Virus record (IMG/VR): IMGVR_UViG_3300030943_000113
Location: 1 to 32,171 of that record
Reading direction: 5' to 3' (one strand)
DNA length: 32,171 nucleotides
DNA from: a virus
The notes beneath the pieces were generated by a model that worked only from the letters and a program-made list of their open reading frames with translations, did not search any database and was not told where the DNA came from. The translations under genes were made by a program, and so were the position numbers. Numbering within the stretch: position 1 is the first letter of the stretch; each line of letters begins with the position of its first letter. Shown in pieces: positions 4,559 through 31,197 of the stretch.

Positions 4559-4732
4559 TTATACATCCCATTCATTACAACCTTGCTGAAAAGCTTCTAT
4601 GATACTTAAATCAGGATTATTCTTCATAGCTCCTAAAGCACCTACGATTACTTCAGCTTCCAACCCGTATTGGGTAACACCTTCCATTAATGAATTAATG
4701 GTATTAAGATTTTCTTTTGTATAAGTTTCCAT
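4559..4732 (-). CDS. Small hypothetical protein, 57 aa
   Basis: Found by reading the gap between the clamp gene and the next gene. It starts METYTKENLNTINSLMEG, ends QGCNEWDV and is followed by TAA. Acidic and helical, without a recognisable motif. It fills the gap almost exactly (6 bases from the upstream stop, 16 to the clamp start), which supports it as real. Confidence 0.72.
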   Translation of the reverse strand: METYTKENLNTINSLMEGVTQYGLEAEVIVGALGAMKNNPDLSIIEAFQQGCNEWDV

Positions 4733-6055: not shown

Positions 6056-6175
6056 AATTAGATAATTTATATTCGATTTTAAGCTTATTTGAGACGTTAT
6101 TATTTAAAGTTAATAGAATATATTACTAATACTTTACGGTTAAAATTTAAGGGTTTGTTCGCTATACAAATAAAA
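6056..6175 (-). promoter_or_regulatory. AT-rich intergenic gap, possible internal promoter
   Basis: 120 bases without a gene, one of the few gaps inside the tightly packed left operon. The minus strand holds TAACTTTA, one mismatch from the Bacteroidota TAnnTTTG box, and a TAATAACGTCT string (6092-6102) that resembles AATAACGTCTTA in the divergent region at 26.3 and 26.8 kb. No strong hairpin was seen. The promoter assignment is a guess from composition and position. Confidence 0.3.
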
Positions 6176-8203: not shown

Positions 8204-9055
8204 TTACTTCAGGGTAATAACGCCATCTTTTTCACTTAAAATACCCCATTCGCTTGCGGCAGGAAGGATATACTTCAAAATGTGAATCGTTTGAGGAAGA
8301 TTCGTTTTTCCACCGACCTTTACGAAGTCGTTATCGGCAGTAGCGCAAACCTTAGTAATGGCTGTTGGTTTTGCAATTGCCATAACAGCTTTACAAATAC
8401 ATACCAGGCGTGAAGGAGTAATAATGGTTTTCCCAGGAAAAGCTTTTTTAACCTTTTTAACAGGCTCTTCATCTTCGTCGTCATCCTCAACAACTGGTGC
8501 TTTCTTACCTTTCTTTGCGGGGACAACGGGTTCTGGAGCAACGACTTTCTTACCTTTCTTTGCAGGGACAACGGGTTCATCATCTTCCTCATCCTCATCC
8601 TCGTCTTCATCCTCGTCAATAACGACAGGAACTTTCTTACTTTTCTTTTCCGGTACAGTAGGAGCAACTACCTTTTTGCCTTTCTTTACAGGGGCAACGG
8701 GTTCGTCGTCTTCATCCTCGTCGTCTTCATCCTCGTCTTCTTCATCTTCTTCTTCTTCATCTTCTTCATCTTCTTCATCTTCTTCATCTTCTTCATCTTC
8801 TTCTTCAACGACAACTGGAGCTTTCTTACCCTTTGCAGCAGGGGCAGTTGCTTTAGCAGGTTTTACGCCAAGGATTTCATTAATCACTGCCTGGGTTTCT
8901 TCGGAAAACTCATCGTCCGGAGTGATATGTTTGCTTGCTGCTTTGATCCCTTTGGTCAATACATCAGCATTACCTTTAACGTTAATCTCAGGACTTAATC
9001 CCATTACGTCGTTCAGCTCTGTGGCTGCTTTCTTCAATATTTTGTCTGTTGCCAT
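8204..9055 (-). CDS. Acidic/basic repeat protein, 283 aa
   Basis: An N-terminal domain of about 65 residues is followed by about 140 residues of low complexity. Long Asp/Glu runs alternate with Lys-rich islands of the type PVVPAKKGKKVVAP, at least five of them. A C-terminal domain of about 80 residues begins near FPGKTIITPSRLV and could be a winged helix. Acidic tails of this kind occur in DNA mimics, histone-chaperone-like proteins and single-strand-binding proteins, but I cannot assign one. It lies just downstream of the helicase genes and ends at a hairpin. The coding DNA is less AT-rich than its neighbours. Confidence 0.8.
   Translation of the reverse strand: MATDKILKKAATELNDVMGLSPEINVKGNADVLTKGIKAASKHITPDDEFSEETQAVINEILGVKPAKATAPAAKGKKAPVVVEEEDEEDEEDEEDEEDEEEEDEEDEDEDDEDEDDEPVAPVKKGKKVVAPTVPEKKSKKVPVVIDEDEDEDEDEEDDEPVVPAKKGKKVVAPEPVVPAKKGKKAPVVEDDDEDEEPVKKVKKAFPGKTIITPSRLVCICKAVMAIAKPTAITKVCATADNDFVKVGGKTNLPQTIHILKYILPAASEWGILSEKDGVITLK
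8735..8806 (-). repeat. Tandem CTTCTTCAT-type microsatellite inside the acidic gene
   Basis: About six to seven near-perfect 9-base units (CTTCTTCAT on the plus strand) encode a Glu-Glu-Asp repeat. Units of 9 keep the reading frame, so slippage would change only the length of the acidic tract. Confidence 0.85.
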
Positions 9056-18651: not shown

Positions 18652-18871
18652 CTTGTTCTTTTTTATAAAGTTTAATACATTCAGGACAGCCTACATCTTT
18701 AACTCCTTCAATTGCTACCCAATTGCTTGATAGCATTGGTTTACCACACATGGTCTTACCGTATTCCGGTGTACCATAGGTATTTGTTTTTGCAATGTGA
18801 GCAGTCTTACTCCAAACATTACCCCTTCCACCAAATAAATGGTGTGTTTCATCTAAATAATGTAGTCCCAT
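18635..18871 (-). CDS. Hypothetical protein with HxxxxC-x2-C site, 78 aa
   Basis: Starts MGLHYLDETHHLFGGRG at the ATG preceded by the AAAACTTACAAAATT leader. A GTG 12 codons earlier is rejected because it would translate through that leader and the hairpin. Late CGK and GCPEC cysteines suggest a small zinc site. No family recognised. Confidence 0.68.
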   Translation of the reverse strand: MGLHYLDETHHLFGGRGNVWSKTAHIAKTNTYGTPEYGKTMCGKPMLSSNWVAIEGVKDVGCPECIKLYKKEQDEKDI

Positions 18872-18941
18872 AATTTTGTAAGTTTTAAATTGATTAAGAC
18901 GCTTCACAGCGTTTCGGGTATTGAACCCTCATCGGTTAATC
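18872..18941 (-). promoter_or_regulatory. Leader module: two small hairpins plus AAACTTACAA leader
   Basis: On the minus strand, GGGT-ACCC (18916-18928) and a 5-bp ACGCT/AGCGT hairpin with a GUGA tetraloop (18899-18912) are followed by the leader at 18876-18888 just before the ATG. The same order of hairpin, hairpin, leader recurs at 20.4, 21.7, 23.2 and 24.0 kb. Not a tRNA: only a T-arm-like piece is present. Confidence 0.55.
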
Positions 18942-19316
18942 TTATCTTGATTCCCTTGTAAGGGTGACACTATCCTTTAGAACTACGTCCAACGCATAAA
19001 TATCCCCTTTCTGTTGCTTGTAAACTTTAGTAACCAACCGGATTACTTTTAGCTGATCTAATTGGGATAAACTTGATACCAATTTGATTAACTTGTATTC
19101 ATCCAATTTAAGATACTCACGAACTACTTTGGGAGTTTCTTTTATATGGGAAACAACTTTTTCTAATTCTACGAAGTTTAGTGACGGACAAAATGGGCAA
19201 CAATCATTTGCAATCTTTCGTCCCATTCTATCTGTTTCGTATGTAATCCCAGGTACTTCAAATACTCTTAGGCACATTTTGCACCTATATTTTCCTTCTT
19301 GCTTTAAGTCTTTCAT
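18942..19316 (-). CDS. Zinc-ribbon protein, 124 aa
   Basis: The N-terminal half has CKMCL and CCPFCP pairs around a beta ribbon, like a rubredoxin-type zinc site. The C-terminal half is helical and rich in Leu, Val and Lys. It starts in an ATGA overlap with the first of two paralogous genes upstream. It may be a regulator or an RNA-binding protein; the target is unknown. Confidence 0.72.
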   Translation of the reverse strand: MKDLKQEGKYRCKMCLRVFEVPGITYETDRMGRKIANDCCPFCPSLNFVELEKVVSHIKETPKVVREYLKLDEYKLIKLVSSLSQLDQLKVIRLVTKVYKQQKGDIYALDVVLKDSVTLTRESR

Positions 19317-19573
19317 TTCTTTGTTCTTTTCATAGGTAAATACAATTCAAAATCAACCGCCCGAAACCATTCCCCGTCACGTACAAGGGTACTTTGATCA
19401 CTTAGTAAATATACATCCCCTAAATTGGTATTAACGTACATAAAAGGTTGGTGAAACTTTTTTGCCAGTGCCCAACGCTTAGAGTTTTCTAATCCTTGAA
19501 GGATTCCTTTACCTTTAGCTGTTTTAGCATGAGGAACTACTTTCATACCAACGGCAACATCTTTGTCTTTCAT
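19313..19573 (-). CDS. GMKVVPH-family small protein, copy 1 (86 aa)
   Basis: Starts MKDKDVAVGMKVVPHAKTAKG and ends with a basic tail. It shares GMKVVPHxKTAxG, a central Trp-x-x-Ala-Lys and a FELY-type end with the adjacent 82-aa gene, so the two arose by tandem duplication. The opening looks like a small SH3-like barrel (V-x-V-G-M-K-V). Preceded by the AAACTTACAA leader (19577-19587). Confidence 0.75.
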   Translation of the reverse strand: MKDKDVAVGMKVVPHAKTAKGKGILQGLENSKRWALAKKFHQPFMYVNTNLGDVYLLSDQSTLVRDGEWFRAVDFELYLPMKRTKK

Positions 19574-19585
19574 CTTTTGTAAGTT

Positions 19586-19834
19586 TTAAATGTAAGGTTC
19601 AAAATCATTTGCAAGAAAATAATCACCACCACTTGGATTATCTTCATTAGAAAAATGTAATACAAATTCCTTATAATTTCCATCTGCAGGAATATGAATA
19701 ACATATAAATAAGGCTGTTTAATAGCTTTTGCACAATTCCATACAACGGATTTATCTAATCCTAATTTTCTACCTTGGGCAGTTTTAGAATGTGGAACAA
19801 CCTTCATCCCAAAATTAACATCTCTATAATCCAT
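19586..19834 (-). CDS. GMKVVPH-family small protein, copy 2 (82 aa)
   Basis: Starts MDYRDVNFGMKVVPHSKTAQG. Paralogue of the neighbouring 86-aa gene, with a longer beta-rich second half and without its basic tail. Leader at 19837-19848. Retention of both copies suggests distinct roles, which the sequence does not reveal. Confidence 0.75.
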   Translation of the reverse strand: MDYRDVNFGMKVVPHSKTAQGRKLGLDKSVVWNCAKAIKQPYLYVIHIPADGNYKEFVLHFSNEDNPSGGDYFLANDFEPYI

Positions 19835-19846
19835 CTTTGTAAGTTT

Positions 19847-20014
19847 TTAACCTTGGTGAACAATTACATTATCGAATACTCTGACGAGTTTCCATCGAAT
19901 ATTATTTTCCCGACACCAATTAATGTAGGCATGGTAGTTGGGGTCCAAAGTACTGTTAAATGTTTCACAATACTTTTCTTTCCCATTCGGGAATATTTTA
20001 TAGAATTTATACAT
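19847..20014 (-). CDS. Small hypothetical protein, 55 aa
   Basis: Starts MYKFYKIFPNGKEKYCETFN, aromatic and basic. Its TAA stop lies inside the leader of the next gene (the TTAA of that motif), and its own start follows another leader copy (20017-20027). That fit on both sides is good evidence for translation. Confidence 0.72.
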   Translation of the reverse strand: MYKFYKIFPNGKEKYCETFNSTLDPNYHAYINWCRENNIRWKLVRVFDNVIVHQG

Positions 20015-20025
20015 GGTTGTAAGTT

Positions 20026-20421
20026 TTAAATATAATCAGATAAACAACCCATTGGATCTTCATCCATTTCATGTTCTTCCCCCAACCGGATAGGTTCATT
20101 TGTTTTATTGAATTTGTAAATCAAATGAAACATTCCTTTATGCCTTTTCCAAGTACGTAGTTCTATGTTATCAATATATAAATCTATGAACGGTTCTTTA
20201 TGGGTATGACTAACAGTACTAATTTGAATTTCATTACCCCAACAGGATTTGATTTCTACAACATATTTTCTTTTACCGATGCAGAATTTTTTAAATCCTC
20301 CTGACCAACTTGTAGCATCAAAAGCTTTATTAGCTACCCCACGTTCTGTAACGGGGATTCTATCAATTAAGTCTTTTACTAACTTAATGATAAACGGATT
20401 TGTTAATACTTTGATTTTCAT
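20026..20421 (-). CDS. Hypothetical protein, 131 aa
   Basis: Starts MKIKVLTNPFIIKLVKDLID. An alpha-beta protein with an acidic tail (EEHEMDEDP). It is preceded by the leader at 20424-20434 and a hairpin module. No family recognised. Confidence 0.7.
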   Translation of the reverse strand: MKIKVLTNPFIIKLVKDLIDRIPVTERGVANKAFDATSWSGGFKKFCIGKRKYVVEIKSCWGNEIQISTVSHTHKEPFIDLYIDNIELRTWKRHKGMFHLIYKFNKTNEPIRLGEEHEMDEDPMGCLSDYI

Positions 20422-20485
20422 TTTTGTAAGTTTAAATTGGAAGGAACATCCTTCACTGGGGAAACCCCCTACAATTTACTGTAGG
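20422..20485 (-). promoter_or_regulatory. Hairpin module plus leader
   Basis: Three inverted repeats in a row on the minus strand: CCTACA/TGTAGG (20468-20485, overlapping the last codons of the upstream gene), GGGG/CCCC (20458-20468) and GAAGGA/TCCTTC (20440-20454), then the leader and ATG. The GGAACATCC text matches the module at 21.66 kb. Could terminate, attenuate or protect mRNA. Confidence 0.6.
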
Positions 20486-20744
20486 AGGCTGTATTTTTTA
20501 ACATTTGTTTTACAGAATCACCTATGATGTCTAAATCTTCATCATATAATCCTTTTTTAAAGTCACGAACCAAACTTTTAAAGTATGGTCCAGTAGAAGT
20601 ATCTATTCGACTTGCTTTTGCTTGTCGTAATTCCAATTCGGTAAACTTAATCCACGTTTGAAGTTCTGTTACAAAATCATAGATTTTCACCGCAGGTTTC
20701 TTTTTCCTGATTATTTCCGGTTCTTTTTTCTTAGTCCTTTCCAT
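20469..20744 (-). CDS. Hypothetical basic protein, 91 aa
   Basis: Starts MERTKKKEPEIIRKKKPAVK at the ATG; an upstream TTG is ignored. The N-terminus is very Lys-rich, followed by a helical domain (YDFVTELQTWIKFTELELR). It could bind nucleic acid. It overlaps the preceding gene by 14 bases. Confidence 0.68.
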   Translation of the reverse strand: MERTKKKEPEIIRKKKPAVKIYDFVTELQTWIKFTELELRQAKASRIDTSTGPYFKSLVRDFKKGLYDEDLDIIGDSVKQMLKNTASYSKL

Positions 20745-20904
20745 TTCTCGCAAATATTAAAGTTGAATATTCAATACAGTATTTGACATATGCCGTAAGT
20801 ATTTCCATTCCTTTGAATTGGAATGATGTAGCACCCTCTTTGCAGGCTTTCCTGTATTTAATTTTAAATGTAGCCATATCATTCAAGGATAGTTTATTTT
20901 CCAT
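20731..20904 (-). CDS. Small hypothetical protein, 57 aa
   Basis: Read in the gap after the DUF932-like gene. It starts MENKLSLNDMATFKIKYRKA, and its ATG shares one base with the upstream stop (TAATG). Helical, with two cysteines. The 14-base overlap with the next gene is similar to others here. Confidence 0.68.
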   Translation of the reverse strand: MENKLSLNDMATFKIKYRKACKEGATSFQFKGMEILTAYVKYCIEYSTLIFARNGKD

Positions 20905-21641
20905 TAATACATAACCTCCTCAGCTTCTGTTATTAATTCGGCTTCTGCCATGAAGAAATCGTGAGCTTTTACGTGGTCGGCAATCCACGTTGAATTGAAT
21001 CCTCCGATACTGTACGTTGTAAATTGGTAAAGTTCCCACATCGTTTGAGGTGCTCGGTAATCATGTGTAGGGTGTAACAATTCCCTCTTAATGATATTCA
21101 GTTGCGCAGAGGTAAGAAAGTCTTGTTCGATGAACATCCTGCCGACTAATTCAGCCTGATCCTTTTTTGATATCTGAATGCTTTTAAGGACATCCCGTTC
21201 ACCTTGTAATCCTTGAAATACTTCGCCGGAACTTTTTACCAACTCAGGGATAATCAGTGGACTGATCTCTTGCACATCGGATAAATGTTTGTGCGTAAAG
21301 TTTCCCATAGCCCGCATACTAATCATTCCGTTTGTACATACAAGAACCATAGCTCCCATAATGAATTTCAGTTTCATACTTTTGTCATAGGAATTTTCCC
21401 AAAGACACTGCATTTGCATTTCAGAATCTTCCAAACCTTTTAGAAGATATGTACCGGAAGCAACCTGTCCATGGCGAATACATTCGTATGATTCTCTTGC
21501 TACTTCAAACCCTGCTTTATGAATGCCTTCCAAGGATAAGTCAATCAACTGTTGATGACTTACAGGTTTGTAAGTAGCTGTTTGCTTTGGTATTTCAGCC
21601 AAAAGCAGTTGATCTTTTGTGATTAAATTATATTCTTTCAT
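20904..21641 (-). CDS. DUF932-like phage/plasmid protein, 245 aa
   Basis: Starts MKEYNLITKDQLLLAEIPKQ. The start is the ATG after a TTAAAATTTACGCA leader variant; a TTG 22 codons upstream would read through a hairpin. The central VCTNGMISMRAMG and the later TMWELYQFTTYS match landmarks of DUF932 proteins (an Asn-Gly strand and a Trp-x-x-Tyr/Phe-x-x-Thr helix), which are common on phages and plasmids and of unknown biochemical role. It is the largest protein of the early small-gene region. Confidence 0.75.
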   Translation of the reverse strand: MKEYNLITKDQLLLAEIPKQTATYKPVSHQQLIDLSLEGIHKAGFEVARESYECIRHGQVASGTYLLKGLEDSEMQMQCLWENSYDKSMKLKFIMGAMVLVCTNGMISMRAMGNFTHKHLSDVQEISPLIIPELVKSSGEVFQGLQGERDVLKSIQISKKDQAELVGRMFIEQDFLTSAQLNIIKRELLHPTHDYRAPQTMWELYQFTTYSIGGFNSTWIADHVKAHDFFMAEAELITEAEEVMY

Positions 21642-21704
21642 TGCGTAAATTTTAACAGGAACATCCCTGTACCAGTAAAACCCCCATTCTTGGTAGAATG
21701 GAGG
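21642..21704 (-). promoter_or_regulatory. Terminator-like hairpin, second hairpin and leader variant
   Basis: On the minus strand a 9-bp stem (21681-21704, loop of 6) has one G-U pair that would be C-A on the other strand. It is followed by TTTT and an ACAGG/CCTGT hairpin (21655-21670), then the leader variant. It belongs to the same repeated module family as those at 23.2 and 24.0 kb. Confidence 0.65.
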
Positions 21705-21749
21705 CAAAACTTAAGTAGATCAAAACTTACGGAAAATAGCTACTTGGTT

Positions 21750-22085
21750 TTAAATTTTCATAAAATCATTAAGGTTGTACCAAGTATCGTTATGATTAAA
21801 TTGAGCAATCATATTATCATCTTCCTCAGCATTTCCTTCAAAGTCGGGATCATCGTGATATTCAATTTCACATTCAGTAAGTTTGTCACTAACGGCACAA
21901 TCTGCCCAATCCGACCAAACAATAACAGAATCACCGCTATTACTTAAAATAAGAAGCATACCACCAAAATTACATTCGGTCATGAAAGCTTGAGCTTTAA
22001 AAGCATCAGGATAACCATTGCCGGAAAATTCTTCTTTGTACTGGTTTTCTAAATCCAATAATATTTCTTCACGTGTCTTTTTCAT
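21750..22085 (-). CDS. Hypothetical acidic protein, 111 aa
   Basis: Starts MKKTREEILLDLENQYKEEF. The C-terminal half is strongly acidic (DDPDFEGNAEEDDN). The middle FGGMLLILSNSGDSVIVW suggests a beta sheet. Leader at 22088-22098. An acidic early phage protein could be an inhibitor or DNA mimic; this is speculation. Confidence 0.7.
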   Translation of the reverse strand: MKKTREEILLDLENQYKEEFSGNGYPDAFKAQAFMTECNFGGMLLILSNSGDSVIVWSDWADCAVSDKLTECEIEYHDDPDFEGNAEEDDNMIAQFNHNDTWYNLNDFMKI

Positions 22086-22097
22086 CTTTGTAAGTTT

Positions 22098-22370
22098 TTA
22101 ATATTGACGGTTTAAATAATGTTCCTCTATAATATCCCTGTGATATACCAGTCTTGGAGTTTCTTCACTTGTCATGTAGGTGTAGTTGTAAACCGTATGT
22201 CGCATTGGATCTTTTACTAAAGTATTTCCTTTATTAATATTGAAGTTTGCTACTACACAAGCCTCAGCTCTTTTTTGTGTAGTAAAAATACCTACCACCT
22301 GAAAATGATTAAAATTGTTCTCAGGTAAGGCACTATCCGATTTTACGATAAATAATTTCTTATAGTTCAT
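22098..22370 (-). CDS. Hypothetical protein, 90 aa
   Basis: Starts MNYKKLFIVKSDSALPENNF; a small alpha-beta fold with several Tyr near the end. Leader at 22373-22383. The stop is immediately followed by the next leader, leaving 12 bases between the genes. Confidence 0.7.
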   Translation of the reverse strand: MNYKKLFIVKSDSALPENNFNHFQVVGIFTTQKRAEACVVANFNINKGNTLVKDPMRHTVYNYTYMTSEETPRLVYHRDIIEEHYLNRQY

Positions 22371-22387
22371 CTTTGTAAGTTTTTAAA

Positions 22388-22615
22388 TTAATCAATAGTC
22401 CAAAATTGCATTTCCTTTTCAGTAATGTACCCGTAATCATACATACCGTGTTTTACAGGAATCTGAAACCTTTGTGGTGTCCTTTTCCAAGTTTTAGTTT
22501 TACCATTCCTCCGGCAACGTAATCTTGAACCATCAGCATTTAATGCGGTGGTGCAATAGAAAGTGCTTACACCTTCCTGATTTTCTTTTGTGAGTGGAGT
22601 GAATCGTGTTTTCAT
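22388..22615 (-). CDS. Hypothetical basic protein, 75 aa
   Basis: Starts MKTRFTPLTKENQEGVSTFY and has a strongly basic centre (RLRCRRNGKTKTWKR), compatible with nucleic-acid binding. The leader is a variant, ATCCACAAAA. ATGA overlap with the gene upstream. Confidence 0.68.
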   Translation of the reverse strand: MKTRFTPLTKENQEGVSTFYCTTALNADGSRLRCRRNGKTKTWKRTPQRFQIPVKHGMYDYGYITEKEMQFWTID

Positions 22616-22770
22616 TTTTGTGGATTATAAATAACCATTGAACGTTTTGAATTTGGATAGGAGTTTACAACTCTTCTTGCTTCTTCAAGTGTCAGATTTT
22701 TTTCTAAAATCTTTTTGCGACCACTAACATAAAAGACTTTTGCTACGTAGTACAATTGTTGAGTTTCCAT
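22612..22770 (-). CDS. Small hypothetical protein, 52 aa
   Basis: Starts METQQLYYVAKVFYVSGRKK and ends with an ATGA overlap onto the next start. Basic and alpha-beta. Recognised by reading the gap; the overlap supports it. Confidence 0.7.
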   Translation of the reverse strand: METQQLYYVAKVFYVSGRKKILEKNLTLEEARRVVNSYPNSKRSMVIYNPQK

Positions 22771-22774
22771 AGTT

Positions 22775-23044
22775 TTATTTTATTGAGTGATAAAATTTTC
22801 TTGCTTTGGTAAGCTCATCAATTTGAAAAGATTCCCATATATCAAAACAACCATGAGTTGATTCATTATATGTTTTTCCTTTTGGGTAGATATTACCGGA
22901 ACGTACATGGAATACATGGTGTTCACAATAAATTTCCTTCCATCGGTGTTTGGTTTCCCTTCTTTGCACATAACCGCAACCAAGAGAATAAATACTAATA
23001 TCACCGTTTTTCAACGGTAATAATCTTTGTTCAGTTGTTTTCAT
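22775..23044 (-). CDS. Hypothetical protein, 89 aa
   Basis: Starts MKTTEQRLLPLKNGDISIYS. Rich in His, Trp and Cys (YCEHHVFHVRSG), perhaps metal-binding. This frame is preferred over an overlapping 74-codon frame because it starts next to the upstream gene and fills the gap. Four bases separate it from the next gene. Confidence 0.68.
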   Translation of the reverse strand: MKTTEQRLLPLKNGDISIYSLGCGYVQRRETKHRWKEIYCEHHVFHVRSGNIYPKGKTYNESTHGCFDIWESFQIDELTKARKFYHSIK

Positions 23045-23050
23045 GATTTT

Positions 23051-23149
23051 CTAATTTAGATTAGTTTCAAACAGAATACCGCAAGCAAAGTAAACATACG
23101 TAAATCCATCCACGTAATAAATCTGGAACCAGCAATTTGATGTTTTCAT
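23051..23149 (-). CDS. Tiny hydrophobic protein, 32 aa
   Basis: MKTSNCWFQIYYVDGFTYVY and onward, hydrophobic and aromatic. The ATG directly follows the leader (23151-23161). A longer frame starting upstream would run through a perfect 10-bp hairpin and is rejected. Very short, so confidence is moderate. Confidence 0.55.
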   Translation of the reverse strand: MKTSNCWFQIYYVDGFTYVYFACGILFETNLN

Positions 23150-23216
23150 TTTGTAAGTTTTAACAGGAACCATTCTCCTGATACCAACAAATCCTCCAAC
23201 CTGGGGAGGTTGGAGG
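23150..23216 (-). promoter_or_regulatory. Intergenic module: perfect hairpin, second hairpin, leader
   Basis: CCTCCAACCT and its exact complement (23193-23202, 23207-23216) flank a 4-base loop. Downstream on the minus strand follow CAGGA/TCCTG (23164-23180) and TTAAAACTTACAAA, then the ATG. Before the stem lies a GAAAATCGAAAATCAAA string shared with the module at 24.0 kb. Confidence 0.7.
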
Positions 23217-23237
23217 CATAAATTTGATTTTCGATTT

Positions 23238-23480
23238 TCATTTCCAATGCTTATACCGATATAAGCAATTGTTAAAATCCTCAATTACTGCTTTCAGGAA
23301 TAGCAGCATACATATTGCGGCAGTAGTGCCAAGTATCACAATAAAGATTGAATTTATTTCATATCCAAACCAAATGCTCCAAACAGAGAACCACTCCATT
23401 GCTACAAAAAATATAATTCCTACAAGAGTCATCGTGAAATGATCCAGGAATCTTTTAATCATCCGGTATATCTTTTTCAT
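23238..23480 (-). CDS. Membrane protein, 80 aa, two segments
   Basis: Starts MKKIYRMIKRFLDHFTMTLV. Two hydrophobic stretches (VGIIFFVAMEWF with its flank, and IFIVILGTTAAICMLLFL) are joined by a short aromatic loop, with basic residues at both ends. Both termini are probably cytoplasmic. First of three adjacent membrane genes. No lysis-gene signature. Confidence 0.68.
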   Translation of the reverse strand: MKKIYRMIKRFLDHFTMTLVGIIFFVAMEWFSVWSIWFGYEINSIFIVILGTTAAICMLLFLKAVIEDFNNCLYRYKHWK

Positions 23481-23481
23481 T

Positions 23482-23670
23482 TTATTTTAAATATAAGTTA
23501 CATAAACACAACATAAGAATACAGCTAAAAAGAATTGCAAATACGAATACGAACAATGTTTGCAGTCCGTCCATAGGATAGAAACAACTTATCCCATATG
23601 TTATGGAACCAGGAACAATAGCAGCATGTAATACTGCTATAAAAGTTGAATTTGAAAATAACTTTTTCAT
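23482..23670 (-). CDS. Membrane protein, 62 aa
   Basis: Starts MKKLFSNSTFIAVLHAAIVP at the ATG after a TTAAAATATTTACAAAA leader variant; 41 codons of in-frame upstream sequence are ignored. Two hydrophobic segments, the second FVFVFAILFSCILMLCLC. It ends one base before the next gene. Confidence 0.62.
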   Translation of the reverse strand: MKKLFSNSTFIAVLHAAIVPGSITYGISCFYPMDGLQTLFVFVFAILFSCILMLCLCNLYLK

Positions 23671-23683
23671 TTTTGTAAATATT

Positions 23684-23839
23684 TTAAATGTAACGGTTGA
23701 AATATCTTTTACAAAAGATAGAATAACTTTCACCTTTGTAAGAATATTTCCGGTAAGCACTCTTTTGACCGGATATGGTACTGAAGATAGCAAAAAGTAT
23801 TAAGGCAATTGCTATGCCAATCAGGATAGTTAGTTTCAT
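23684..23839 (-). CDS. Small membrane-anchored protein, 51 aa
   Basis: MKLTILIGIAIALILFAIFS forms one N-terminal helix, followed by a basic, Tyr-rich tail of about 30 residues. The start overlaps the upstream TGA (ATGA) and the stop precedes the next leader. It could be an anchored peptide facing either side; the positive tail favours the cytoplasm. Confidence 0.65.
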   Translation of the reverse strand: MKLTILIGIAIALILFAIFSTISGQKSAYRKYSYKGESYSIFCKRYFNRYI

Positions 23840-23994
23840 TGTTTTTGGTCGGCATTACCGATTAAATTATTTGTTTGAAGAACTTCAAGTGAAAGTGCAA
23901 TTAATTGATTATGCATTTCTGAAAGTTCTATAAAACCAATTTCATAATTGGTTATAATCTCTTTTTGCTGTGAAATAAATTTGTCGTGTTCCAT
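23836..23994 (-). CDS. Small helical protein, 52 aa
   Basis: Starts MEHDKFISQQKEIITNYEIG. Spacing of Ile and Leu suggests an amphipathic helix or coiled coil. The leader at 23996-24006 lies directly before the ATG. ATGA coupling to the membrane-anchored gene. Confidence 0.68.
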   Translation of the reverse strand: MEHDKFISQQKEIITNYEIGFIELSEMHNQLIALSLEVLQTNNLIGNADQKQ

Positions 23995-24066
23995 TTTGTA
24001 AGTTTTTAGCCTTTCAACGTTGTCCGGCTTATACCACCAAAACCTCCAATCTTGGTAGATTGGAGG
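23995..24066 (-). promoter_or_regulatory. Intergenic module: perfect hairpin, second hairpin, leader
   Basis: CCTCCAATCT and its exact complement (24043-24052, 24057-24066) with a 4-base loop are followed on the minus strand by TTTTGGTGGTAT, an AGCC/GGCT stem enclosing the palindrome CAACGTTG, and the leader. Stem plus T-run fits an intrinsic terminator; the downstream half is shared with the other modules. Confidence 0.7.
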
Positions 24067-24091
24067 TATTTTGATTTTCGATTTTCGATTT

Positions 24092-24763
24092 TCAATTCTT
24101 GGTTTTCAATTTTCGATTTTTAGGTTGGTTTTCAAATATCGTAATCAATAAATCATTCCGGTATGCTTTTGCCCTAAGTGCGTTGTCGTAGCAAGCATTC
24201 TTAATCCAATCTTCCAAGTTTGTTTTTCCTAAAGGTAGATACTTCATTCTATCACCAAGAACACGCATATAGCAAATATTCATTATGCGGAGAATAGATA
24301 AAACCATGCTTGCATCCTCAGGCTTCGTTGTTTCCATTATCTGCCATATTTCAACGGCATATTCAAGATTCTGTTTTGCTATCTTTTCGGCATAAGGTAT
24401 TTCCGAAGTAAGATTCTGAAAATTGGTATCGGAATGTGCAATTTTAGTACAAAGATCAATTAATCTTTCCAAGGTAGTTGTTTTGTGTTTTACATTAACA
24501 TCACGACCGATTTCAATCATATCGTTGTTTTCGTAATGCTTGCGTACTTGCTCCATGGTCAATGCTTTTGGTGCTCTTGGGGTAACAAACCTGCTAACAT
24601 TTTCCCATTTAGTATCAACAAAATTACCTTCTCTTTTTTTAGGAAGTAATTCATCATAAACATATTCAGGAACAGCTTGCATATCACTTGGATAACATAC
24701 TTCACAAGGTTGAAATGCTACTTCCGGCGTTTCTTTTTCTGCTTTAACTTGTTTTGTTTTCAT
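24092..24763 (-). CDS. Hypothetical protein, 223 aa
   Basis: Starts MKTKQVKAEKETPEVAFQPC. It has one early CEVC pair and then a mostly helical body (TTLERLIDLCTKIAHSD, EYAVEIWQIMETTKPED). Leader at 24767-24777. It ends in a low-complexity Asn/Lys tail encoded by GATTTTC-like repeats. First gene after the 540-base gap, so possibly the first of the leftward series. No family recognised. Confidence 0.72.
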   Translation of the reverse strand: MKTKQVKAEKETPEVAFQPCEVCYPSDMQAVPEYVYDELLPKKREGNFVDTKWENVSRFVTPRAPKALTMEQVRKHYENNDMIEIGRDVNVKHKTTTLERLIDLCTKIAHSDTNFQNLTSEIPYAEKIAKQNLEYAVEIWQIMETTKPEDASMVLSILRIMNICYMRVLGDRMKYLPLGKTNLEDWIKNACYDNALRAKAYRNDLLITIFENQPKNRKLKTKN

Positions 24764-25199
24764 AATTTGTAAGTTTTAAATTTGTAAATATTTGTAATTG
24801 ATTAATTTCATTTCACCATGGGAAAATTGAACTCAACTTTTGATTTAAAAGCAATTATATCTATACTATTTCAAATCTAATTATTTCAAATCCAAATTAG
24901 TATAATAACCCATTTTCAATCCCATTTGAATCGTTTTGTTCCGACATTCCTGTAATCCGGTATATAACTACTGCGTCAGAATCACTATTGCGTGGATTAC
25001 AAACACTATACACGTCGTCAAATATCGAAAGTAATATAATTATATGATTCATAATAATAATGGTTAAAATAGTGTTCAAAATCGAAAGTAGTAAAATAGG
25101 TGTTTCAAATATAGTAAAAATACCGGATATCTGAAATTCAAATAGTATTAATCCGGATCACCGTATAAAATAGGATATTAAGAGTATATAAACGAAAAT

Positions 25200-25224
25200 A
25201 GGTTTGTCCAATCCGGACAAACCT
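25200..25224 (-). terminator. Second hairpin downstream of the basic protein gene
   Basis: Perfect 10-bp stem AGGTTTGTCC with a 5-base loop, followed on the minus strand by TATTTTCGTTT. With the hairpin at 25252-25277 it makes a double terminator for leftward transcription. Confidence 0.6.
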
Positions 25225-25251
25225 AAAAATAAACCCTATTTTACTACAAAA

Positions 25252-25277
25252 CCGTCTAACTAATTAAAGTTAGACGG
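25252..25277 (-). terminator. Intrinsic terminator after the basic Lys/Ala-rich gene
   Basis: Perfect 10-bp stem CCGTCTAACT with a 6-base loop, followed on the minus strand by TTTTGTAG. It lies 31 bases after the stop of the 171-aa gene. Confidence 0.75.
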
Positions 25278-25307
25278 CAAAGTAATTAATCGGATAAATT
25301 AAGCTAA

Positions 25308-25823
25308 TTAAACTGCGGCAACCCAGATATAATTGCCACCTTCAAGCTGCTTGACGTCCCAACCAAATGTGCCACCCTTTTTGAAGTTGGTGGGCTGAAG
25401 GATGGTGTACAAGCCAATCGCCAGTGTCATTGGGGACATTTCAGGATGCGCTGCGCAAAGCTTTGCATAAACCTGATCACGTGAAATACCTACTTTTTTA
25501 TCTGCAGCAAAAAGAATATCACGTACTTCTGCTTTTGCCGTCCATTTTGTTCCGGTGGTCTTGTGAAGCATAGTGTCAATTGCCGTTAAAAGTGCTTTTT
25601 TAGATTCAGCTTCCATGTTCCAGTCGGTGATGATTTTGATGATCAGGTCAGTAACTTTTACTTTTGCTACTTTTTTTTCTGGTTCCTTGGTGCGTGCTGG
25701 TTCATCGGCAGGCTTGTCGTTTTTGGCTGCTTCATCGATTTTTTTCTGCTCTGCGATTTTTGCGGCAAGTTGTTCGTTGGCGATTTGTGCATTTTTTTTG
25801 GCTAATTTCTGTGCTGGTGTCAT
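25308..25823 (-). CDS. Basic Lys/Ala-rich protein, 171 aa
   Basis: Starts MTPAQKLAKKNAQIANEQLA. The first 55 residues are Lys, Ala, Glu and Pro rich and probably an extended or coiled-coil tail. The remaining 115 form a globular domain with two helical repeats and a beta end (GGTFGWDVKQLEGGNYIWV), perhaps a winged helix. Its codons are clearly richer in G and C than neighbouring genes, and it has its own leader variant (AAAGCTTACAA at 25836-25846) and strong terminators, suggesting high early expression. Possibly DNA-binding; no family named. Confidence 0.75.
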   Translation of the reverse strand: MTPAQKLAKKNAQIANEQLAAKIAEQKKIDEAAKNDKPADEPARTKEPEKKVAKVKVTDLIIKIITDWNMEAESKKALLTAIDTMLHKTTGTKWTAKAEVRDILFAADKKVGISRDQVYAKLCAAHPEMSPMTLAIGLYTILQPTNFKKGGTFGWDVKQLEGGNYIWVAAV

Positions 25824-25847
25824 AACTTTTAATTTTTGTAAGCTTTA

Positions 25848-29742: not shown

Positions 29743-31197
29743 ATGAAAAAGTTATTAATTGTTTTCTTAGTTTTGTTTATAGCTTTATATTCTTCAGCTA
29801 TTACTCGTTATGTTGCTACAACGGGAAATGATAGTAATGCTGGAACAATTACTGCTCCCTATAAAACAATACAACATGCAGCGGATGTTGTTAATCCTGG
29901 GGATATAGTAATTGTAAAAGATGGTGTATATACAAATACTATTCCAAATTACGGATCAGAACAAGCGGTAATTAAATTAACTCGATCAGGTACTGCATCT
30001 TCTTATATTACATTTCAAGCAGAACATAAATGGGGTGCAGTATTAGATGGGCAAAGTTTTGCAGCTGAATTTGGGATAATGATTAATACCGCTTCCTATA
30101 TAAAGATAGATGGTTTTGAAATAAAAGATATTGGAATTTGGGCGATACCTATTTATGAAGGTAGTAATTATATAGAGATACGAAATTGTAAGATAAATTC
30201 AATAGGGGTTGTATGTACTGCAACCACAAATGGTTTATCTGCTATTGCTTTATTTTCAGCAAATCATATATTAATTGAAAAGAACTTAATCTATAATATA
30301 GGAAGATTAGCACCGGATGAAGGTTGTACAATTGCAAAATATTATCAATGGCAAGATCATGGTATTTATATTGACAACTCAAATTTTATAACTATACAAA
30401 AGAATATAATTTATGGTGTTCAAGGAGGATGGACAATTCATTTTTATAGTGGATCAGGTGGTATGAGTTCAAATAATTACATCTTAAATAATACCATAGC
30501 ATTTGGTAAACGGGCATCCGGTTTAGTAATACTTTATGAGAATGTAACAAACACATATATTCAAAATAATATTTTTTATCATGGAACGGATATTTCCTAC
30601 GATGTTTATGCTGGATATAATCATGGTATAGTAATTAATACTGGATACACTTATTCTAATGTACAGATAAATTATAATTTGACATATCGGGGAAGTGGAT
30701 TAACCACGTCAGGAGTTGTTGTACCAGGAGTTACTTCACGTTATAATATAAACAATACAAATCCATTAATATTAAGTGAATCTAATTTTGATTTTTCTTT
30801 GCAGTTAGGAAGTTTAGCAATACATGCTGGAGTGGATGTAGGATTGACCTCTGATTATTTAGGTAATCCTGTTATAGGTAAACCAGATATAGGAGCATTG
30901 GAATATCAACCCACTGCAATTACTTATTATAATACAACGGCAACGGCAACGGCAATAAGAAATAATTGTCCTACTAATTATACTGGATCAGTGGTTACTT
31001 ATATTGTACCTGCCAATAAATATTCATCTACTACGAGTCAGGCGGAAGCAGATTTACAAGCAACAAATGATCTTACTGCAAATAAACAAGCATACGCTAA
31101 TACGAATGGGATTTGTACAGCTCCAATTCCGGATATTACAAAAACTATTAAAATAAGTGTGCAGGACGGAAAAATAATAATTCAAGATGTACCTTAA
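29743..31197 (+). CDS. Secreted-type right-handed beta-helix protein with DUF5977-like C-terminus
   Basis: 484 residues. The first 19 residues (MKKLLIVFLVLFIALYSSA) are a classic signal peptide without a lipobox. RYVATTGNDSNAG and PYKTIQHAADVVNPGDIV begin a pectate-lyase-like parallel beta-helix with many Asn-Tyr-Ile turns (to about 385). Residues 393-460 match the DUF5977 pattern (YYNTTATATAIRNNCP, TYIVPANKYSS, QAYANTNGIC). It may cleave polysaccharide or act as a tailspike. A signal peptide is unusual for a virion part, and so is the position between terminase and portal. Host-acquired gene is the alternative. Confidence 0.82.
   Translation: MKKLLIVFLVLFIALYSSAITRYVATTGNDSNAGTITAPYKTIQHAADVVNPGDIVIVKDGVYTNTIPNYGSEQAVIKLTRSGTASSYITFQAEHKWGAVLDGQSFAAEFGIMINTASYIKIDGFEIKDIGIWAIPIYEGSNYIEIRNCKINSIGVVCTATTNGLSAIALFSANHILIEKNLIYNIGRLAPDEGCTIAKYYQWQDHGIYIDNSNFITIQKNIIYGVQGGWTIHFYSGSGGMSSNNYILNNTIAFGKRASGLVILYENVTNTYIQNNIFYHGTDISYDVYAGYNHGIVINTGYTYSNVQINYNLTYRGSGLTTSGVVVPGVTSRYNINNTNPLILSESNFDFSLQLGSLAIHAGVDVGLTSDYLGNPVIGKPDIGALEYQPTAITYYNTTATATAIRNNCPTNYTGSVVTYIVPANKYSSTTSQAEADLQATNDLTANKQAYANTNGICTAPIPDITKTIKISVQDGKIIIQDVP

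Follow-up and report, generated by a model that had tools for sequence, protein, structure and literature searches.

About ten early genes of the virus analysed here carry the same short leader directly before their start codon, and the same virus encodes one predicted small hairpin RNA whose loop holds the exact complement of this leader, which suggests that a single RNA controls the translation of all of them. The window, i.e. the whole stretch of DNA analysed, is a 32,171-nucleotide virus record of IMG/VR (G000 in comparisons). It encodes a phage terminase (28181, plus strand), a family A DNA polymerase, a processivity factor, a DnaB-like helicase, a primase and an SNF2-type helicase. Early and replication genes run leftward, late genes rightward. 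A megablast search revealed no near relatives among GenBank phages, and no cultured close relative was found by protein comparison.

The leader described in the original prediction is real. The 10-mer AAACTTACAA occurs exactly 11 times in the window, only on the minus strand. Ten copies are located 1–4 nt before an ATG between 18.9 and 24.8 kb, while the remaining copy (11243) lies inside a gene. The ten copies are found at 18876–18885 (4 nt before the ATG of the gene starting at 18871), 19577–19586 (3 nt, 19573), 19837–19846 (2 nt, 19834), 20017–20026 (2 nt, 20014), 20424–20433 (2 nt, 20421), 22088–22097 (2 nt, 22085), 22373–22382 (2 nt, 22370), 23151–23160 (1 nt, 23149, heading an ORF of only 32 codons), 23996–24005 (1 nt, 23994) and 24767–24776 (3 nt, 24763). 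With one mismatch allowed, 21 hits were obtained compared to 7.6 expected in dinucleotide shuffles, and none of 100 shuffles reached 21. AACTTACA is the most enriched 8-mer upstream of ORFs in the window (10 of 12 copies, p about 1e-13). A few details of the original prediction had to be corrected. The 14-mer TTAAAACTTACAAA, given there as the usual form, is exact only four times, the others being TAAAAACTTACAAA or similar, and the spacing to the ATG is 1–4 nt rather than 1–5 nt. The variant before the gene starting at 21641 (AAAATTTACG, 21644–21653) is real, whereas the one near 25823 (AAGCTTACAA, 25836–25845) lies about 12 nt before its ATG. The one inverted intergenic copy on the same strand, GTAAGTTTT at 21722–21730, had been missed.

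Related phage records were retrieved by terminase searches. The same leader stands before starts in four of these records, namely G004 (1972, 4244), G005 (26337, 26058, 25712 and others), G006 (AAAACTTACGAAA three times, AAAACTTACAA twice) and G015. A fifth, G011, has its own version, TAAAAACTCA, and uses TTAAAAACTCAAA, with 8 of 9 TAAAAACT copies located before starts. Other relatives use still other strings, for example CATCAAAAACCTA in G034. In G000, G004 and G005 the leader is confined to the early arm, mainly near the divergence point, and no copy precedes a rightward late gene. In 296 Bacteroidota genomes, TAAAACTTACAA-N(0-4)-ATG occurs 25 times, which is chance level and about as often as the reversed control, so that the leader is a phage signal and not a host signal. 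It is unlikely, therefore, that the leader is simply an optimal initiation context for Bacteroidota ribosomes (A-rich, A at -3, -6, -12 and -13). The leader is indeed A-rich with an A near -3, and such adenines raise translation in Flavobacterium johnsoniae (PMC6847099). However, the CTTAC core is not part of that rule, the spacing varies by 3 nt, hosts do not use the leader and lineages use different cores.

Genes whose start overlaps or abuts the upstream stop mostly lack the leader. In the early blocks of six genomes, only 1 of 15 genes starting at most 4 nt after the upstream stop has it, compared to 35 of 57 others (Fisher p 2.5e-4). Since overlapping starts also leave less room, this is supportive of independent initiation, but not decisive. 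Five copies in the window follow the previous stop by only 12–29 nt with nothing conserved upstream, which argues against a promoter. A recombination linker spreading by gene shuffling and duplication, or a promoter giving leaderless mRNAs, is thus considered very unlikely. The leader does precede unrelated small genes, and the genes starting at 19573 and 19834 are paralogues each carrying it, but it is mostly absent from coupled genes and neither view predicts the anti-leader hairpin described below.

Folding of the intergenic stretches showed the reverse complement of the leader upstream of some leader-bearing genes. Each of six genomes harbors one intergenic anti-leader of the same architecture on the coding strand (G000 21722, G004 4327, G005 25055, G006 8569, G015 4326 and G011 11498). 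G015 has one more intergenic copy, at 71858, without the architecture. In all six genomes the anti-leader lies in the loop of a hairpin, which is followed at once by a strong terminator-like hairpin and a T-run. In the window, stem-loop 1 (21706–21751, minus strand) consists of the arms AAAACCAAGTAG and CTACTTAAGTTTT around a loop holding TTTTCCGTAAGTTTT. The anti-leader GTAAGTTTT within it is the exact complement of AAAACTTAC and the only copy on the coding strand. Stem-loop 2 (21680–21705, minus strand) is the terminator-like hairpin GCCTCCATTCT-acca-AGAATGGGGGT followed by TTT. The gene just downstream (20904–21641, minus strand) encodes a DUF932-like protein (PF06067, 25.4 bits, cut-off 23.0). 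The downstream gene differs between genomes, so the element is not part of one gene. No match was found in Rfam.

The loop is TTTTCCGTAAGTTTT in four genomes, TTTTCCTGTAAGTTTT in G015 and TTTTAGTGAGTTTTTA in G011. The stem arms differ in sequence and do not align, yet they pair within each genome: of all 720 ways to combine 5' and 3' arms, the true assignment has the lowest total energy. Shuffle tests of single genomes gave p-values of 0.046, <0.0005, 0.008, 0.0075, 0.25 and 0.09. Stem-loop 1 is hence only weakly supported in the window itself (p 0.046) and not significant alone in G015 and G011. The loop changes with the leader. G011 has the leader TAAAAACTCA and the loop TGAGTTTTTA (10 bp). 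In G006, the leaders AAAACTTACG, ending in TTACG, match the loop CGTAAGTTTT base for base, while in G015, with leaders ending in TTACA, the loop TGTAAGTTTT matches AAAACTTACA and contains TGTAAG instead of CGTAAG. Five of the six genomes share nearly one loop type, and G011 is the only clearly different loop with the same architecture. Duplex energies rank the own leaders of each genome near the top for its own loop, and the G011 loop finds 7 of 31 starts in G011, while the G000 loop finds 1. In the window, eleven leaders can pair with the anti-leader over 8–10 bp ending 2–6 nt before the AUG (9 bp for the copy at 18876, 8 bp for that at 20424), including the variant at 21644–21653, which keeps 10 bp through one G-U pair.

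As to how good this STATISTICALLY is, a 9-nt complement alone is not rare in an AT-rich 32 kb record (56 of 60 simulated Markov records reach it), so that the case rests on architecture and co-variation. Random intergenic 16-mers hold such a complement with a frequency of 1.3e-3 for the G000 leader and 4.4e-4 for the G011 leader. A blind search over all records for terminator-linked elements complementary to several start leaders placed G000, G015, G005, G006 and G004 among its top six, the terminator of G011 not being seen by the detector. A blind scan of hairpin loops ranked the element first in G011, G006, G005 and G015, while the broken stems of G000 and G004 escaped the detector. A composite DNA pattern run over 2.9 million viral contigs hit only G004, G005 and G006. 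Looser patterns gave chance hits, one of them 15, whose contigs have essentially no leaders, and the bare 15-mer TTTTCCGTAAGTTTT is common by chance in IMG/VR and not informative.

The best explanation is that the leader is a common target site before the start codon of separately translated early genes, and that leader and anti-leader form a phage antisense-RNA regulon, most likely repressing early translation (probability roughly 0.6; 0.62 in our estimate). The RNA, predicted at about 21751–21677 (minus strand), probably arises at the 3' end of an early transcript, directly after the stop codon of the leader-bearing gene starting at 22085. By pairing just before the AUG it would mask the initiation region of about eleven early mRNAs and lower their translation, as a feedback or early shut-off switch. 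The leader, one such anti-leader element per genome, the conserved hairpin and terminator, and the matching changes in loop and leader are established by the sequences analysed. That the RNA is made, that it base-pairs in trans and that the effect is repression are inferred from sequence alone.

A cis role cannot be excluded, but appears unlikely as the sole function. In this view the anti-leader pairs only with the leader of the next gene on read-through transcripts and keeps that one gene off, the other leaders having a separate role. The element lies about 40–60 nt before a leader-bearing gene in all six genomes, predicted minimum-energy folds of several of them contain such a long-range pairing, and the variant leader of the gene starting at 21641 pairs longest (10 bp). 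On the other hand, this does not explain why ten other genes share the same complementary leader, a terminator lies between element and gene, and the downstream genes are unrelated. Similarly unlikely is a protein-binding translational operator, with the inverted copy as a second kind of binding site. Repeated operator-like sites at start codons of early genes are known for phages (PMC3014915); T4 RegA sites are an example. However, no candidate protein was found, and such an operator does not predict that a hairpin loop is an exact complement and changes with the leader.

The interpretation in the original prediction is therefore partly supported. A dedicated phage signal tied to translation starts, as proposed there, is supported by the near-fixed distance to the ATG, the presence in related phages before different genes, the scarcity at coupled genes and the absence from hosts. 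Of the three mechanisms offered, a plain translation enhancer does not explain a lineage-specific core with a matching anti-leader, a recombination linker does not explain the hairpin, and no RNA-binding protein was identified. The best-supported partner is an RNA hairpin, which had not been noticed.

The closest known system is the start-associated sequence (SAS) of cluster K mycobacteriophages (Pope 2011, PMC3203893), a short identical sequence in one orientation, typically 3–7 nt before the starts of many non-structural genes, whose role was still called ill-defined in 2024 (PMC11373665). The leader shares with it the identical short sequence within a few nt of many starts in one orientation, the absence before late genes (in the window, G004 and G005) and a single reversed copy that is not at a gene start. 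In contrast, the SAS consensus GGGATAGGAGCCC includes a Shine-Dalgarno core, while the leader is AAAACTTACAAA; about half of the SAS have ESAS elements (putative promoters) upstream; SAS mostly precede genes more than 50 bp from the upstream gene, while five window copies follow the previous stop by 12–29 nt; and the hosts are actinobacteria. One reversed SAS copy per genome had been noted without explanation in four phages (PMC3203893). Here, this copy was found on the coding strand in the apical loop of a long hairpin in Anaya, and likewise in the hairpin loop in other K1-type phages. This stretch is held by 125 records, and in most of the divergent ones inspected the loop is kept while the stem changes with mostly compatible pairs, although covariation in the stem is modest against shuffles (27 of 500). 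ZoeJ has the anti-SAS in a different hairpin elsewhere. In Adephagia the hairpin lies between genes 92 and 93, where late transcription was reported to begin (PMC11373665). Amgine, Ekdilam and SirPhilip, however, keep SAS but not the anti-SAS loop, and Pixie has none, so that the analogy is promising but not universal.

It is possible, though less likely than not, that unrelated phages independently evolved one design, namely a homogenised tag at the start codons of early genes plus a single hairpin RNA carrying the anti-tag, with both changing together. Besides the family of the window and the cluster K1 and ZoeJ mycobacteriophages, candidate pairs were found in four further records: L360 (18-nt complement, 0 of 60 simulations), L342 (10 nt, 2 of 60), G034 and G018. 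In G034 the complement (38092–38103) lies in a weak hairpin, and complements of that length are not rare by chance (31 of 60). In G018 a 9-bp hairpin with the loop TTTTTTTGCGAT fits the leader, but the minimum-energy fold prefers other pairings, so that this pair is suggestive only. In three other records the search gave no such pair: the anti-leader of L391 consists only of Shine-Dalgarno sites of genes on the other strand, and L060 and L324 have no convincing hairpin. If this reading holds, the anti-SAS hairpin of Adephagia would be an early-to-late translational switch. The antisense-regulon reading would give a mechanism for SAS, unexplained since 2011, in a form testable at once in cultured mycobacteriophages of Mycobacterium smegmatis, and show a phage regulon controlled by one RNA through a shared start tag. 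It would also offer a tag/anti-tag pair for multi-gene translational control in Bacteroidota, whose ribosomes do not normally use Shine-Dalgarno sites.

Phage antisense RNAs such as P22 sar, lambda OOP and the C4 RNA of P1/P7 are likewise small phage RNAs pairing with phage mRNA, and sar interferes with translation initiation (PMC12197685). Those RNAs act on one or few targets, whereas here about eleven genes share one target string, and no covariance-model match above the gathering score was obtained for known Rfam antisense families such as C4. The autoregulatory sRNAs OppZ and CarZ (PMC7398697) originate from the 3' end of a transcript and feed back on their own gene or operon. The predicted phage RNA resembles these 3'UTR-derived sRNAs in its location after a stop codon and its intrinsic terminator, but OppZ and CarZ are bacterial, and in the phage element the pairing stretch is in a hairpin loop. 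The leader with its predicted hairpin RNA would thus work like SAS and like phage antisense RNAs, but is a member of neither by the features tested.

In the window, the adjacent genes 19573 and 19834 (19313-19834, minus strand) encode paralogues (GMKVVPHxKTA), each of which carries the leader. At about 23175-23240 and 24040-24110 (minus strand), similar GAAAATCGAAAATCAAA stretches are found before terminator-like hairpins, each followed by a small inverted repeat and a leader. A beta-helix protein with a DUF5977 domain (29743-31197, plus strand) is encoded downstream of the terminase gene.

In the related phage records G006 (upstream of 6149) and G015 (upstream of 1747), a tRNA T-arm-like sequence is located just before leader genes, but was not called as tRNA by ARAGORN. 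A few late genes of the related phages G004 (13190 and 21309) and G005 (35205 and 35689) have a Shine-Dalgarno-like AAAGGAG before the start, although the early genes do not.

In the phage record L360, the leader TTAAAAATCAAAGAAAAA precedes four starts (leaders at 4608, 5386, 6186 and 8605), while one intergenic 18-nt perfect complement (8501-8518, plus strand) is unpaired between two hairpins; a tRNA-Glu (6086-6158) lies just before a leader gene. The GC-rich phage L342 harbors a Shine-Dalgarno-bearing leader, GGAGCACGACA, before seven or eight starts and one reversed copy (13564, plus strand) inside a long stable stem-loop. In the cluster K phages Anaya and ZoeJ (L401, 34871, and L413, 3724), the unexplained reversed SAS copy lies in a hairpin loop.
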